Both the position numbers and the translations under genes were made by a program. DNA of 64,000 nucleotides, from NCBI GenBank assembly GCA_903871775.1, contig CAIQIA010000007.1:62001-126000 (forward strand). Reading direction: 5' to 3'. The notes under the pieces were generated by a model. The model had not been told where the DNA came from and searched no databases. It was given only the letters and a program-made list of their open reading frames with translations. Below, piece after piece: positions 1 through 12,919 of the stretch. This DNA comes from an uncultured cyanobacterium. Its GTDB lineage: Bacteria; Cyanobacteriota; Cyanobacteriia; PCC-6307; Cyanobiaceae. The stretch's first letter is position 1, and every line of letters starts with the position of its first letter.

Positions 1-129
1 CTTCTCGAAGCCGCTCACCACATCGCCACCGATGTAGCGGCCACTGCGCAGAACGTCGAGCACGGCCTGGTCGAGCTCGTCCCCCAGGGCAGCCAGCTGG
101 GAGCTCAGATCGAAGGGTGGGATCACCAT
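1..129 (-). CDS. DegT/DnrJ/EryC1/StrS-family aminotransferase, N-terminal part only
   Basis: Only the first 43 codons lie in the window; the gene runs off the left edge. It starts with ATG at 129 and reads MVIPPFDLSSQLAALGDEL, followed by a segment containing SGRYIGG. That opening is typical of PLP-dependent sugar aminotransferases of the DegT/DnrJ/EryC1/StrS family, which transaminate nucleotide-linked keto sugars for surface polysaccharides. The PLP lysine is outside the window, so activity and substrate cannot be judged. It is divergent from the lipoprotein gene that starts at 240. Confidence 0.75.
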   Translation of the reverse strand, partial: MVIPPFDLSSQLAALGDELDQAVLDVLRSGRYIGGDVVSGFEK

Positions 130-239
130 GGGTCCCACCTTAAGCCGGGTCTTTACAGAAGCTGCAGAATCAGCCGGTCGCGGCACCGGCCGGCCGCGCA
201 GAATCCCATCAGGCACAACAGCGCGAGCCAGGGTCTGCG

Positions 240-779
240 ATGGCGACGGGGGGGTGGCGACGGGTCCCACAGGGGCTGGCACTGCTGCTGACGGCTGCCC
301 TGGCGGGTTGCGGCGGCGCCGGCCACCAGCCCCTGGCCTGGCGCATCTATCCCCTCAGCCGCAACGGCCCCCACGACGGGCTGGCGGTGGTGAACCAGCC
401 CGACGGCTACGGGCTGCACATCTGGATCGACACCGACACCCGCCGCCCCGGCGAATGCCGCCCGCGCTGGACCCCCGATGCCGCCCGCCTGTTCAACGGC
501 AACGGCAGCGCCCCGTTCAGTTCGGGCCTGGCCGGTCGCAACGAGTTCTTCCAGGCGGTGGGCCGCTGGGATGTGGGCCGTCAGCTGCGCCGCGAGAGCG
601 AGGCCCTCTGCCGCCTGCGGGCGCCGTCGGCACGGTTCGTGTGGGTGGCACCGCCCCGCAACGAGACCGAGGTGGTGCTCGAACCGCTGCCGCCGCTGAA
701 GGAGAAAGACCTGCTGCCCGACCCCAGCAAACTCAAGGAGGAGGAGAAGCGGCTGCTGGGGGTGCCCCGGGAGCGCTGA
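240..779 (+). CDS. Conserved cyanobacterial lipoprotein of unknown function
   Basis: A 179-residue protein with an N-terminal hydrophobic stretch ending in LLTAALAGC, a lipobox that predicts lipidation of Cys24 and membrane anchoring outside the cytoplasm. The mature part contains HIWIDTDTR and RFVWVAPPRNETEVVLEPLPP and a lysine/glutamate-rich C-terminus. I do not recognise an enzymatic motif. Its last 47 bases overlap the 3' end of the convergent phosphopantetheinyl transferase gene. ATG at 240 is preferred because the signal peptide begins there. Confidence 0.75.
   Translation: MATGGWRRVPQGLALLLTAALAGCGGAGHQPLAWRIYPLSRNGPHDGLAVVNQPDGYGLHIWIDTDTRRPGECRPRWTPDAARLFNGNGSAPFSSGLAGRNEFFQAVGRWDVGRQLRRESEALCRLRAPSARFVWVAPPRNETEVVLEPLPPLKEKDLLPDPSKLKEEEKRLLGVPRER

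Positions 780-4706: not shown

Positions 4707-4710
<4 letters not shown>
4003..4710 (-). CDS. YgjP/M48-like zinc metallopeptidase, last gene of the restriction operon
   Basis: A 235-residue protein of the YgjP (DUF45) family. It has the zinc motif HELCH (195-199) and a third ligand, His205, in HPNHSKAFW. The preceding RSRWGSCNQRG is the other family signature. The biochemical role of YgjP is not settled. Relatives are often carried beside type I restriction genes, and here the start overlaps the hsdR stop by 4 nt, so it should be co-translated with HsdR. That makes it a candidate accessory factor of the restriction system, for example in HsdR proteolysis or maturation, but this is inference. 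Confidence 0.88.
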
Positions 4711-7682
<2,972 letters not shown>

Positions 7683-7684
7683 GG

Positions 7685-8800
7685 TTAGACGCTGACCCTC
7701 TTGCGACCTGAGAGGAGGTCTGAAGCAACAGCACTTTTCATATTTGTAAGTTGCATATTCTTTTCCATGAGCGCAAGACGAGTTCTTTGAATGCCATCAA
7801 AAATGTCTGCGACTTCTTTCTGGCGTTCCAGCGGTGGGACTGGAAGACGGTATATCTCTCGGATGACGCTAGGGTGCGCCTTGAACGAGTAATCAAAGCG
7901 CAATCTTCCGTGCTGAAATACAAGAGCAAGGTGGGCGTATCTGTAGTCAAGATGCGGTTCATTTATTCGCAGGTATCCGCAGACATTCGTAACCGAGAAC
8001 TTGTGACGCTTTCTGTGAAAAAGGCGACCGCCACCGTCTATTGACCATGTAATTAGTTCTTCGTCAAACATATGCTCTCCGTATTCGCCAAATTTCCCAT
8101 CCCCCTTTCCTGAGGAGGAGTAAATCGGGAACCCTCCAGGCAATCTTTGAATGTCTTGCTTGGAGATGATATTTCCCCGCCCAAGCGTGATAAGACCATC
8201 TGATTCAAGTTCTGAAACTGTCAGAGCATCGCCATCGGACGGGGAGAGATCAGGGGCTAGAAAAACCTCCTCAAGCAGACCCCTTTCTAGTTCTTCTGTT
8301 TTTGATATCTGAATAGTTGTCAGGCGTATATAGTTGTCAATCCCAGAGAGTATCTCGGCGATCTTCTTCTGCTCGGGGAGCGGGGGAAGGGGGAGGTGAT
8401 AAAGTTTTCTGATGACGCTAGGGTGTGCCTTTGTCTGGTAGTCAAAAGTTAGTTTTGAGTGCTGTAGTGCCAGTGAGGCATGGGCAAATCGGTAATCCAG
8501 AACTGATGTGTCTAACTTCAAATAACCAGACACATTGGTCACTGAAAACTTGTGCCGTGGTCTGTAGAAAAGGTTTCCGCCTCCATCAACCGACCATGTG
8601 ATCATTTCCTCGTCAAACATGTAGTCTCCGTATGTCCCAAAGAGACCCTCTCCCTTGGCGGAGGACGAGTAGATAGGGAATCCGCCTGGCTTGTTATTTA
8701 TGTCTATCTTTGAGATGATGTTTCCTCTACCAAGGGTTGCGACCCCTTTTTCTTCTAATTCATGAAGTGGATACTGCTCCCAGGGATAGGTGTCACTCAT
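7685..8800 (-). CDS. hsdS: Type I specificity subunit S with two homologous target-recognition domains
   Basis: A full-length 371-residue specificity subunit. The first recognition domain spans about 14-138 and the second about 197-321. They align without gaps at an offset of 183 residues, sharing LGRGNIISK, PGGFPIYSSS, MFDEE, RHKFSVTNV and KAHPSVIR. By eye about two thirds of positions are identical. Each is followed by a conserved helical spacer ([19 protein letters not shown] after the first). Two similar domains in the usual antiparallel arrangement predict a symmetric bipartite target. The gene overlaps the preceding half-size hsdS by 4 nt. It is strikingly AT-rich: I count 21 G+C in the 60 bases from 8281. 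Confidence 0.93.
   Translation of the reverse strand: MSDTYPWEQYPLHELEEKGVATLGRGNIISKIDINNKPGGFPIYSSSAKGEGLFGTYGDYMFDEEMITWSVDGGGNLFYRPRHKFSVTNVSGYLKLDTSVLDYRFAHASLALQHSKLTFDYQTKAHPSVIRKLYHLPLPPLPEQKKIAEILSGIDNYIRLTTIQISKTEELERGLLEEVFLAPDLSPSDGDALTVSELESDGLITLGRGNIISKQDIQRLPGGFPIYSSSGKGDGKFGEYGEHMFDEELITWSIDGGGRLFHRKRHKFSVTNVCGYLRINEPHLDYRYAHLALVFQHGRLRFDYSFKAHPSVIREIYRLPVPPLERQKEVADIFDGIQRTRLALMEKNMQLTNMKSAVASDLLSGRKRVSV
8337..8389. repeat. Copy 1 of a spacer repeat shared by the two hsdS genes
   Basis: This stretch encodes the [18 protein letters not shown] spacer helix that follows the first recognition domain of the full-length hsdS. Its first 44 bases (8337-8380) are identical to 8963-9006 in the neighbouring half-size hsdS. 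After one mismatch another 8 bases match. Such a repeat in the same orientation could support recombination between the two specificity genes. Confidence 0.9.
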
Positions 8801-9474
8801 ATCTCAACCCCTTCAAGAACCTGTGCCTCGCTGACCCTCTTGCGTCCTGAGAGTAGGTCCGACGCAACCGCCTTTTTTAATAATCGCAATTTTGACACCT
8901 TGCCAGAGGCGGCATTGCTTTGACTGGTGCTTGCTGAGATCTCTATTAATGAAATAAGGCGATCAATCCCAGAGAGTATCTCGGCGATCTTCTTCTGCTC
9001 GGGGAGTGGGGGAAGTGGGATCGGAAAGTCTTTCAGTTGTGATGTTTCTATGCTTTCAACAGTTGTCCCGCTCTTCATGCATGAATCAAGAATATCCTGA
9101 GAATTGCTTTTCATGTATTGAAATACATAGGAATCTTCAATTCCTGGTCTGACCGTGATCGCCTTTAGGTCCTGATTGATCGCTAGATTCCTTCCTGCAA
9201 CTGCTAGGGGAAGCGTGTGCCTAAGGATCCCGCTTCTTGTTACGACAAGAATCGCTCCTGCGGGTATCAAGGATGCCGAAGACTCGGATAAGGCAATTTC
9301 ATTTATTGAATCTTCTGAAAATCTTATGATGTCGCTTTTCATGTCTTTTGGGGACACCCAGGGTATCTCCCCTTTCCAGTAAGCAGGGTTTGCTTTTGAA
9401 GGTGTCCCTCCGCCTTTCCATTCACCAACATCTGCCAGTTTTGAAAGTCCCCAACTCACGGGAAAGTCACTCAT
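8797..9474 (-). CDS. Half-size type I specificity subunit S (single recognition domain)
   Basis: At 225 residues it is about half the normal HsdS length. It has one recognition domain opening [15 protein letters not shown] and containing [10 protein letters not shown], a common HsdS type distinct from both domains of the downstream hsdS. A single spacer follows ([18 protein letters not shown]). The C-terminus [14 protein letters not shown] is nearly the same as that of the full-length S. Half-size S subunits can dimerise to rebuild a symmetric specificity module. The start overlaps the hsdM stop by 8 nt and the end overlaps the next hsdS start by 4 nt. It could be a functional second specificity or a remnant of a rearranged gene; the intact frame and overlaps favour function. 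Confidence 0.9.
8963..9015. repeat. Copy 2 of the hsdS spacer repeat
   Basis: This segment matches 8337-8389 with 44 identical bases, one mismatch (T for C) and 8 more identical bases. It encodes the spacer helix of the half-size S subunit. A second, less exact pair encodes the shared C-terminal tail at about 7691-7733 and 8830-8872. Confidence 0.9.
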
Positions 9475-11539
9475 ATCCCAACTCCTTCAGGAACCCGTGC
9501 ATCACTGCTTCTGCTTCCTTGACCTCAGCATCAATCTGAGCGAGTGAGACCCCGTACTTCTCCCACCACCGCTCAAACTGCTGAATCACCGCATCTGAAG
9601 CGTCTCCCAGGTGCTGGCGGATCTGGGACTTCTCTTGAATGTCCTCCCGAAACTTCAGATACTCAGCATCCTTGGGAACCAGGACGCCGCTGACATCAAA
9701 ACCTTCAAGGATCTCCTGGATGTATTCGCTCTGAATTTCCTTGATAGGCACCCCACCATGAAGGATGCCCCGCACATCAAAGGGTTCAGGTGGTGGTGAG
9801 GTGTCTGCGTACCGACGGATATTTAGGTTGTGGTCGTTCTCCCGTATCTCCTCAAGCGGCACCACCCGTGAGAACCGCTTGATTTCGTTGTAGGCGTCAA
9901 AACACCCCACCACCTTCTCAATGTCATCGTCCCGTAGAAGGTTCTGGTTCTTGCCCTCTTGGTAGTCCAGTTCAGCATTGATGAAGAGCACCTTGCCACG
10001 ACGCTCCATCACCTTGTTCTTGTTGATGATCAGCAGTGCTGCAGGGATACCTGTGCCATAGAACAACCCTGATGGCAGACCGATCACTGCTTCCACCAGA
10101 TCGTCTTCCAGGATGCCTTTGCGGATCTCACCTTCCTGACCACCACGGAACAGAACACCGTGAGGCACCACCACACCCATGACGCCCTGTTGATTCAGTG
10201 AGGCGATCATGTGCTGAACGAATGCCAGGTCTCCTGCGTCCTTGGGCGGAATGCCATAGCGATACCTGCCATACCCATCGTGTTCCGCCAGTTCCCGTCC
10301 CCAGTTCTTCAAGGAGAAGGGTGGGTTGGCGATCACCCGATCAAACCGCATCAGTTCGCCGTGCTCCACATGCTGCGGTTCGCCCAGGGTGTCTCCTTTG
10401 CGAATGTCCGCATTGAAGAACCCGTGCAGGAACATATTGAGTTTGCAGATTGCCCAGGTGCTCAGGTTCATCTCCTGACCGAACAACTGAATGTTGTTTT
10501 CGTTCTCCCCGTGCGTTGCCAGGTAGTTCCTTGACTGGAGCAGCATCCCCCCTGAACCACAGGTCGGATCCAGCACCTTCATCCCCGCATGGGGTTTGAT
10601 CAGAGACACCAGCAGTTTCACGACCTGCGGTGGCGTGAAGAACTCACCACCCTTCTTGCCCGCTGAGTCAGCGAACATTTTGATCAGGTACTCGTAGGCA
10701 GCACCGAGGAGGTCAGGACGCTCAAAGTCCTCGTTCCTCAACCTGAAGGTGGAGTAGTGGGAGAGCAGGTCCCTGAGTTTGCGGTCGTTGAGTTTGTTTT
10801 TGTTGTTGAAGTCAATGGAGACCAGCACTCCCTCCAGAACGGGGTTCTGCTCTTCAATCGCTTCGGTTGCCTTGTTCAGGGCGTCCCCGATGTCGTGCTT
10901 GAGGTCCTTGAGGTTCTCCCACCTCGCCCGATCAGGCACATAGAACGCCTTGTCGTACTCGTCCTGGTCCTCTGCCAGTACTGCTGCCTGTTCCTCGGTC
11001 TTGCCCCGATCCAGGTAGTACTGGATCACGCCCTCCCGTGCCTCCTCAAAGGCATCGGACAGACGCTTGAGGAACAGCATCCCGAAGATGTAGTCCTTGA
11101 ATTCCGAGGCATCCATGCTTCCCCGCAGGATGTCGGCACTTTTCCAAAGGAACGACTCCAGTTGGGAGAGGGTCAGTTTCTGCCCGATCTGGAAGCTGGG
11201 TTCGGGGCTGGCCCCGTTGCCGCCGTTGGCGCGTGCGGTGCTGCGGCGGGTGGTGGGTGCTGAGGGTGCTTCGTAGCGAGTGCCGCCAGGGATCCCCTCG
11301 GCCAGGGCGATGGATCCACCACGCCCACGGCCCTTCACGATCAGCCCAAAGTCCAGCGCCTTCTGCCGCACCAGCTCGTACTCCTCCTCGCTGATCGGGC
11401 GCTCGGCTGCCCGCCCCAGCGCCTCCCGGGCCGCCAGGTTGCCCATGGTGCTGCCATCCGGCGGCAGCACCTCCAGCAGCAGATCCCCCAGGTCGTCGTC
11501 GCTGGCTTCAGGGGTGGTGAAGGCGGCGGAGTCGCTCAC
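9467..11539 (-). CDS. hsdM: Type I DNA methyltransferase subunit M with N-terminal winged-helix extension
   Basis: HsdM methylates adenine in the target chosen by S. This 690-residue form has the SAM-binding motif I DPTCGSGG (324-331) and the N6-adenine catalytic motif NPPF (405-408), plus [11 protein letters not shown] just before the catalytic core. Residues about 15-80 form an extra domain ending in [15 protein letters not shown]. It resembles winged-helix extensions on some other type I M subunits and is joined by a linker rich in Ala, Ser, Thr and Asn. DNA for this extension is very GC-rich (47 of 60 bases from 11401), while the methylase core is not (31 of 60 from 10801). It heads the operon M-S-S-R-YgjP. 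Confidence 0.95.
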
Positions 11540-11629: not shown

Positions 11630-12919
11630 TCAGTCCACCACCTCCGGATCCAGATCCAGTCCCGGGTAGAGGAAGGCGCGGCTGAGCCGCTGGCAGTCGC
11701 CGGGGCTCACCGAGGCCTCGCGCAGGGTGGCCTCCCAGCTGCTGGCCACGGTGTCGACGATCCGCGTGGCGATTGCTTCGGCTTCCGCCGGCTTGAGCAG
11801 AAAGCGACCGGCCGCGGCCAGAATCGCCCGTCGGTTGGCCCAGCGGCTGGGGCTGCGGTCCACCAGGCCGCAGGCCATGGCCAGGTCGCGGCGGGTTTCG
11901 GCTTGCAGCGGTGCGGGCGTGAGGTCGTAGGCGGGGCTGAGCTGCCAGCTTGTTGACCTGGCCAGCAACGCATGGTTGCGGGGGTGGTCGTCAGTGTTCG
12001 AGACCGCGGCGTTGAAACAGATCCGGCCGAACAGCTCCCGCAGATCCACCGCCGGCTGGGCGCTGACGCGGCGCAGCTCATCGGCGAGCAGCAGGTACGA
12101 CCACCTGCCGCGATCGGTGGCACTGTCATCCGCCTGCAGCAGGGTGACGGCGCTGACCATGCGATGGCGCCGGTATCCCGCCTCGCTCCAGTCGCGGTCA
12201 AAGCGCTTGACCAGAAGCACATCGGCATCGCCAACTCTGGTGAGGCGGCTTTCGGCCACCTGCAGCCCGCAGCGGCGGGCCAGCAGCAGCAGGCCGTGCT
12301 CCACCCGAGGCTGGTTCCAGCTGTCGGCAGGCGCTGGGAACTTGGCCAGCCAGAGGGCGTTGTCGGCCTCCACGGTGGTCTTGGGGCGGGCGCCGCCCAT
12401 CGACGTGCCGGCCTGACCAATCAGCTCCTCCACCTGCTCCAGGGCTGAGCCTGCTTGTAGGGGTTCCTCGCGGAGGATCGCATCAGCCGCCTGCTTGATG
12501 CGCTCCAGATCAAGGGTGCGGTGGAAGCGGAGCTGCGGCGCCGGTGGATCAACGCCGCGGCCAAAGCCCACCGCACCGCAGCGATCGTCCGGTCCGAGCA
12601 GCAACAGATCGAAATCGCTGGGCTCCCCCAGGCCGCCATGGCGAGCGATCACCCGGCGACCCCAGTGATCGGGCAGGGCATCGCGCAGTGCCCCGAAGAA
12701 GCCCCCCAGGCGGGCCGTCTCGAAGGGGCCCTGGCGCAGTCTCAGCTGCACCGGATCGAGCTCCACAGCGTCCGGCCGCTCGCGGTAGCGGCGGCCATAG
12801 ACAAACGTGCCCACCGGTTGGCCCTGCCGATCGCGGCCCTGCGAAAACCGGCCCGCCGTGACGAACGCCGTGCTGCCCGGCAGGACCACATAGACGTAGC
12901 ACTCGAGATCCGATGGCAT
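11630..12919 (-). CDS. hipA: HipA-family serine/threonine kinase toxin
   Basis: HipA kinases phosphorylate translation factors such as glutamyl-tRNA synthetase and induce dormancy. The 429-residue length is normal. It has the N-terminal HipA domain (LGGFFGALRDALPDHWGRRV), a nucleotide-binding region around LIGQAGTSMGGARPKTTV, the catalytic loop SNTDDHPRNHALL and the metal-binding AYDLTP. All expected motifs are present. It lies 32 nt downstream of the XRE-type gene, forming a hipBA operon, with 90 nt separating it from hsdM on the same strand. Readthrough into the restriction operon is possible. Confidence 0.92.
   Translation of the reverse strand: MPSDLECYVYVVLPGSTAFVTAGRFSQGRDRQGQPVGTFVYGRRYRERPDAVELDPVQLRLRQGPFETARLGGFFGALRDALPDHWGRRVIARHGGLGEPSDFDLLLLGPDDRCGAVGFGRGVDPPAPQLRFHRTLDLERIKQAADAILREEPLQAGSALEQVEELIGQAGTSMGGARPKTTVEADNALWLAKFPAPADSWNQPRVEHGLLLLARRCGLQVAESRLTRVGDADVLLVKRFDRDWSEAGYRRHRMVSAVTLLQADDSATDRGRWSYLLLADELRRVSAQPAVDLRELFGRICFNAAVSNTDDHPRNHALLARSTSWQLSPAYDLTPAPLQAETRRDLAMACGLVDRSPSRWANRRAILAAAGRFLLKPAEAEAIATRIVDTVASSWEATLREASVSPGDCQRLSRAFLYPGLDLDPEVVD

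Follow-up and report, generated by a model that had tools for sequence, protein, structure and literature searches.

Half-size specificity (S) subunits of type I restriction-modification systems have been described to act as dimers that read palindromic sites, as available accounts report for EcoR124I-NT (GAAN7TTC), for the EcoDXXI deletions (TCAN8TGA and GAAYN5RTTC) and for NgoAV (PMC2877798, PMC3874165), as well as for an engineered S. aureus system (ACCN5GGT). Loci in which a shorter S gene accompanies a longer one are also known. In the hsdRSMS locus of S. xylosus, the available text states that the short S is required for the motif of the long S and not for a second motif, and that the N-terminal half of the long S gave no modification (PMC10030836). 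BlihIA, in the presence of its two S genes, showed a single type I methylation motif, and the accessible part of that paper states that a model for two HsdS proteins sharing one HsdM is lacking (PMC12429846). Our searches of the open-licence literature, when aimed at tandem or half-size HsdS proteins of cyanobacteria, yielded largely unrelated papers, and no mention of the operon described here was found there, BlihIA and the S. xylosus system being the nearest.

The operon lies on the minus strand of a window of 64,000 nucleotides from an uncultured cyanobacterium of the Cyanobiaceae, and all positions given here are window coordinates. It runs from hsdM (9467-11539; 690 aa, N6 adenine methyltransferase, GTG start) through a half-size hsdS (8797-9474; 225 aa, ATG start, one recognition domain, or TRD, of a type here called B; its product is referred to as half-S) and a full hsdS (7685-8800; 371 aa, two TRDs of one type) to hsdR (4707-7682; 991 aa, nuclease/translocase subunit), the sole hsdR of the operon. 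The hsdM and half-S frames overlap by 8 nt and the half-S and full hsdS frames by 4 nt, while a gap of 2 nt separates the full hsdS from hsdR; the sequence-only reading had placed a 225-residue S between hsdM and the full hsdS with these same two overlaps, and the frame coordinates agree. HsdM, HsdS and HsdR are encoded together, as in a type I restriction-modification operon, and all have family-level matches (N6_Mtase, E 3.7e-105; HSDR_N, E 2.3e-40; HsdM_N; Methylase_S), in addition to TIGR00497 and TIGR00348 matches above cut-off. The HsdM and HsdR frames are uninterrupted and similar to solved type I subunits: HsdM matches the M subunit of EcoR124II (E 4.7e-59) and, more closely, that of PacII (E 1.8e-113), and the best match of HsdR is EcoR124 R. 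No terminator-like site was found on the minus strand between 8797 and 11539, and one minus-strand match lies within the full hsdS (8035-8023). HsdM also bears an N-terminal extension of about 115 residues without a Pfam match (HsdM_N starts at residue 127), which occurs in Cyanobium/Synechococcus relatives and missing in Prochlorococcus orthologues, where matches start at residue 115-120. A HipA-like gene (11630-12919) immediately precedes hsdM in the same orientation, and locus L145 likewise has a HipA-like fragment before hsdM.

We then focused our attention on the half-size gene. A single Pfam Methylase_S match was obtained for half-S (residues 5-177, E 1.3e-24), above the cut-off, and two for the full S, as expected if half-S has the single recognition domain attributed to it earlier. 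Its structure model matched 1yf2 (Z 19.6) and 7bst (Z 19.3), so that half-S combines the TRD fold and conserved spacer helix of an HsdS with the one-TRD, one-spacer make-up of dimerising half-HsdS proteins. Its best homologue in 400 searched genomes is part of another HsdS, at 52% identity; searches of plasmid and viral sequences gave no close orthologue, returning only relatives below 60% identity. As the S fold was modelled with confidence (mean pLDDT 94.1, with 205 of 225 residues at 90 or more), and considering the 52% homologue and the 41% identity to the EcoR124 HsdS chain 7bst_A over 169 columns, half-S is not a chance reading frame. Its 225 codons contain neither frameshift nor stop, even though the junction copy described below has drifted at 6 of 42 nt; such an intact frame is compatible with selection on the protein and, just as well, with selection for translation through it up to the full hsdS start, as a relay. 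A single hsdS that has been split or frameshifted was ruled out, because both frames are intact, their TRDs differ and the full hsdS has its own start signal. Overall, half-S is a genuine second S gene, similar ones having recently been reported from other systems, and it probably is translated and serves as a second specificity subunit that binds HsdM.

Regarding the recognition domains, half-S aligns with the full S over the spacer alone (24 of 38 and 30 of 53 aligned residues identical), which confirms that its domain differs in type from those of the full S, as had been proposed. The half-S TRD is unrelated to that of the full S, and its nearest counterpart in the clade is TRD2 of locus L057 (59% over 135 residues). 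Among solved structures, the C-terminal TRD of EcoR124II is a close match (phmmer domain E 5.9e-36), and the available part of a review tabulates this domain as reading CGAY/RTCG; a half-site CGAY/RTCG for half-S, derived from about 41% identity, is a guess. The two TRDs of the full S share 69% identity, the sole such case among 39 two-TRD HsdS proteins compared, and a symmetric site for the full S is therefore plausible, in support of the earlier suggestion that the full S is itself symmetric. This TRD type was found again as TRD1 in loci L055 (78%) and L079 (71%).

An unusual feature of half-S is its spacer. Full S proteins of this clade carry a 17-residue block after TRD1 and, C-terminally, the block DLLSGRKRV; most S proteins of the clade have both signatures, and Prochlorococcus has variant forms. 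In half-S, the start signature of the central helix, an 18-residue stretch of the central conserved region (residues 154-171; 8962-9015) that in this clade is typical of the end of TRD1, is joined to the end signature of the C-terminal helix, a 17-residue stretch of the C-terminal conserved region (residues 199-215; 8830-8880), and both are kept. As the two blocks follow in succession, half-S looks as if a full first S had lost everything in between. Spacer length was taken as the distance between two anchors in 120 aligned S-halves of the loci examined, and was 35 residues in 87 of them, 39 in 16, 36 in eight and 32 in two, with six unmeasurable. The 47-residue helical spacer of half-S is unique among the 114 measurable S-halves, the other 113 falling between 32 and 39, and it lies outside the usual spacer length, a criterion set by this analysis and not a formal definition of HsdS. 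A Ser-rich stretch (residues 180-192; 8899-8937) occupies the site of the 12 extra residues. Other S frames with one TRD (L091, L095, L140, L141, L142 and L143) have spacers of 35 or 39 residues where measurable, two pieces of L140 and one of L095 being unmeasurable, and the short S of L139 has a spacer of 32. The main clusters at 35 and 39 are separated by a step of four residues, like the TAEL step of EcoR124I/II.

The AlphaFold model of half-S places helices at residues 157-184 and 187-209, with a break at 185-186, whereas the model of the full S (mean pLDDT 75.2) has two continuous spacer helices of 41 residues. The fold search was run on the half-S model, and the weaker full-S model was left out. 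In the VIA-align results, most matches to HsdS chains stop at half-S residue 187-188, though the 1yf2 chain continues. In two cases the match reaches the far end of the chain, namely in EcoKI HsdS (2y7c; half-S 1..225 on chain 1..437) and in M. genitalium HsdS (1ydx; half-S 2..210 on chain 1..372), so that the second helix is put on the other chain end, as expected of a hairpin. Moreover, matches to CamA, M.BseCI, BpuSI and BREX PglX extend to half-S residue 210-213. Foldseek alignments to 1yf2, 5ybb and 3okg covered 214-219 columns at an rmsd of 12.5-13. Based on this model and these alignments, the break is probably a hairpin that returns the end signature beside the start signature, in the position that the partner half takes in a full S. 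Two weak matches of residues 156-213 to the short helical chains 8ij9 and 8szz might also suit a straight, kinked helix, and AlphaFold, which was given a single half-S chain, may have bent back a helix whose true partner lies in a second chain. Esub1 was a further structural match of half-S, and no paper naming it was found in the open-licence literature.

The sequence around the start of the full hsdS indicates where the second S gene came from. The junction between half-S and the full hsdS (8792-8833) is identical at 36 of 42 nt to the original junction between the hsdM 3' end and the half-S start (9466-9507), the source of the copy; the next-best site in the operon reaches 22 of 42, and the best of 40 mononucleotide shuffles 25 of 42. 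A ribosome-binding-like site and the start of the full hsdS lie inside this copy. The same is seen in locus L053, where the junction between two full-length S genes equals 37 exact nt of its own hsdM end. Read in another frame, the copied stretch gives similar C-terminal tails in both operons, namely the 11-residue tail of half-S and GDARVLEGVGI in the first S of L053. The junction copy therefore points clearly to a duplication of the hsdM tail together with hsdS as the source of the second S gene, which thereby received its own start signal. Two Prochlorococcus loci, L060 and L083, have tandem hsdS genes and no stretch of at least 8 nt in common with the hsdM-tail junction, so the tandem arrangement arose otherwise there and not every case in the clade goes back to this mechanism. 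Four features are plain in the window: the copied junction, the fusion of the two spacer signatures, a spacer longer by 12 residues and overlapping frames without interruption. The proposed history would have begun with a tandem hsdS duplication inside the operon, yielding two S genes; the last ~40 nt of hsdM, copied along, would have provided a ready-made translation-coupling signal, and the first S gene would then have lost one TRD in frame.

To place the operon among its relatives, HsdM was searched against 300 genomes of the family, 62 of which gave a match at E 1e-50, and against GTDB contigs, which gave 31 loci. The comparison set consisted of 18 separate operons whose hsdM is some 75% identical or more, same-contig loci of both sets being merged; L063 (broken hsdM) and the fragments L085 and G063:C68 were left out, and L055, with a stop inside hsdM, was kept. 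Fourteen operons have one full hsdS and four have two tandem S genes on the same strand: the window, L053 (416 and 414 aa), L060 (391 and 432 aa) and L083 (389 and 412 aa). Two S genes working at once in one operon had been called rare, a view weakened by the four same-strand tandem cases among the 18 operons of this hsdM clade; a half-size S was found in the window only. On a tree of 17 HsdM proteins (without L055) and one outgroup, the four tandem operons are scattered, requiring four changes of which at least three are forced, and no clustering beyond that of shuffles was detected.

Within the family more widely, 55 of the 121 genomes that are at least 90% complete have Methylase_S matches. 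Open S frames below 280 aa number at least seven among the matches listed (the window, G008, G083, G076, G079, G044 and G156). The six outside the window comprise three S pieces in G008 (L140), a single 190-aa S downstream of hsdM in G083 (L141), two overlapping tandem half-S genes of 213 and 178 aa with no full S found alongside in G076 (L142 3752-4926; contig C9), an S locus interrupted by the contig end in G079 (L143) and two loci that appear broken, in G044 (L144) and G156 (L145). Half-size S genes thus occur in the family, and none of the six listed cases outside the window adjoins a full S as half-S does. Farther afield, a half-size S of about 195 aa stands before hsdM in six of six Campylobacterota loci (L091, L092, L093, L095, L096 and L097), four of which have more S frames after it, full-length or in pieces, the order of the S. 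xylosus hsdRSMS locus; a viral contig (L139) carries S frames of 193 and 394 aa. The genome of the window itself has further hsdM/hsdS sets on contigs C4(/C27), C10, C11 and C21, and so two type I motifs alone would be no proof of a second specificity from half-S. Contigs C4 and C27 each begin with an hsdS (short on C4, truncated on C27), and probably represent one type I system split by assembly.

How half-S would act can be read in several ways. We tentatively favour, at somewhat short of an even chance, a duplication within the operon followed by the loss of one TRD, with half-S translated, binding HsdM and sharing the HsdM pool with the full S. Binding would take place through the retained signature patch, where the start of one spacer helix lies beside the end of the other, so that the full S, with an A-A specificity, and a complex bearing the B TRD would draw on one pool of HsdM, and perhaps of HsdR. 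Given that its spacer is able to fold back, half-S may start out as a closed half, in which one TRD and a two-helix hairpin bind one HsdM, and this half may then open and exchange helices to form a symmetric dimer. In a further reading, half-S would be a monomer that stays closed, its hairpin replacing the partner half, and one HsdM with one half-S would make up a 'half' type I methyltransferase; we regard this as distinctly unlikely. The same low likelihood applies to the proposal that such a closed half-enzyme has the shape of the methyltransferase-TRD parts of CamA, M.BseCI or BREX PglX, operates alongside the full M2S enzyme of that cell and competes with it for HsdM. The sequence-only reading had proposed instead that half-S could dimerise and give the same HsdM and HsdR a second, symmetric specificity. 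In its favour are a second S that is intact and has a TRD type of its own, with a frame overlapping those of its neighbours, a single adjoining hsdM and hsdR, and the retained spacer signatures, as are the half-S dimers known from EcoR124I-NT, the EcoDXXI deletions, NgoAV and the engineered S. aureus system. In its canonical form, an antiparallel homodimer, M2(S-half)2, would read a palindromic site, e.g., CGAY(N)xRTCG, which the same HsdR would restrict. However, with the 12 extra residues and the Ser-rich stretch, such a homodimer would come at an unusual spacing: the accessible part of the review gives four residues per extra bp and characterised methyl intervals of 6-9, and 12 extra residues per helix would surpass known spacing unless looped out. 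Moreover, the model breaks the spacer helix, BlihIA showed a single motif and no modification was obtained with an N-terminal half of the long S from S. xylosus, as far as those two reports are available (PMC12429846, PMC10030836). Considering the spacing, the single motif of BlihIA and the role of the short S in S. xylosus, a second symmetric specificity is possible and not the default; the canonical dimer is only one of several readings and is made doubtful by the unusual spacer, and we consider it rather unlikely.

It is also conceivable, and in our view rather unlikely, that half-S is what remains of a former full-length first hsdS. Its frame would then survive either owing to a recent deletion or through a role as a translational relay. 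Half-S is unique among the 18 related operons, its spacer length is unlike that of the other measured S-halves, as an untuned deletion would give, its tail is out-of-frame hsdM sequence, and overlap coupling alone would be expected to select against stops; nevertheless, the frame has outlasted the drift of the junction copy, both signature blocks are intact and nearly the whole protein is modelled with high confidence. In turn, half-S could serve as a cassette that donates its TRD to the full hsdS by recombination through common spacer DNA, shifting specificity over time. A 58-nt spacer block is 97% identical in the two genes, and TRD types reappear in other combinations among relatives, but over 60 nt there the identity of the pair is 92%, the S genes of L049-L058 reach 82-92% to half-S, the two genes share one orientation and lack the inverted repeats that mark phase-variable loci, and no recombinant was seen; we consider this very unlikely. 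As the spacer block is common to the L049-L058 relatives at such identities, it was ruled out as a special feature of this pair. Between 5500 and 12500 no pair of inverted repeats of at least 20 nt was found between the two S genes, the common blocks being direct, and an inverting phase-variable cassette was thus also ruled out. Overall, the locus is a defined case of two HsdS proteins with one HsdM, with a traceable origin, in a cyanobacterial hsdM clade with recurrent tandem hsdS, and its 47-residue spacer is a testable structural oddity by which a dimer can be told from a closed half-enzyme. Should the closed form prove active, it would represent a naturally occurring intermediate linking type I enzymes with single-chain methyltransferases.

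Compared with the systems described so far, on the parts of their reports available to us, half-S resembles the type IC half-S proteins of EcoR124I-NT, the EcoDXXI deletions and NgoAV in having one TRD and one spacer helix and in the fold family of its HsdM, but those proteins replace a full S, whereas half-S accompanies one. Phase-variable loci with duplicated hsdS (PMC7394358) also have more than one hsdS per hsdM; they carry inverted repeats and silent genes, in contrast to the same-strand, overlapping intact frames in the window. With the hsdS_short and hsdS_long genes of S. xylosus (PMC10030836), the window has in common a half-size-like predicted short-S fold and an 8-bp hsdM/hsdS overlap. 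However, in S. xylosus the short S precedes hsdM, is conserved throughout and has no homologous regions with the long S, while half-S lies after hsdM and has spacer blocks in common with the full S. The G279:C13 operon of a Synechococcaceae MAG (L053/L070) has the order hsdM-hsdS-hsdS-hsdR, the same hsdM-tail junction copy and a 4-nt overlap, and differs in its two full-length S genes. Among published systems that combine a full and a half-size S, BlihIA from Bacillus licheniformis (PMC12429846) comes nearest; compared by gene content, it has, like the operon described here, one hsdM, one hsdR, a full hsdS and a one-TRD hsdS per locus.
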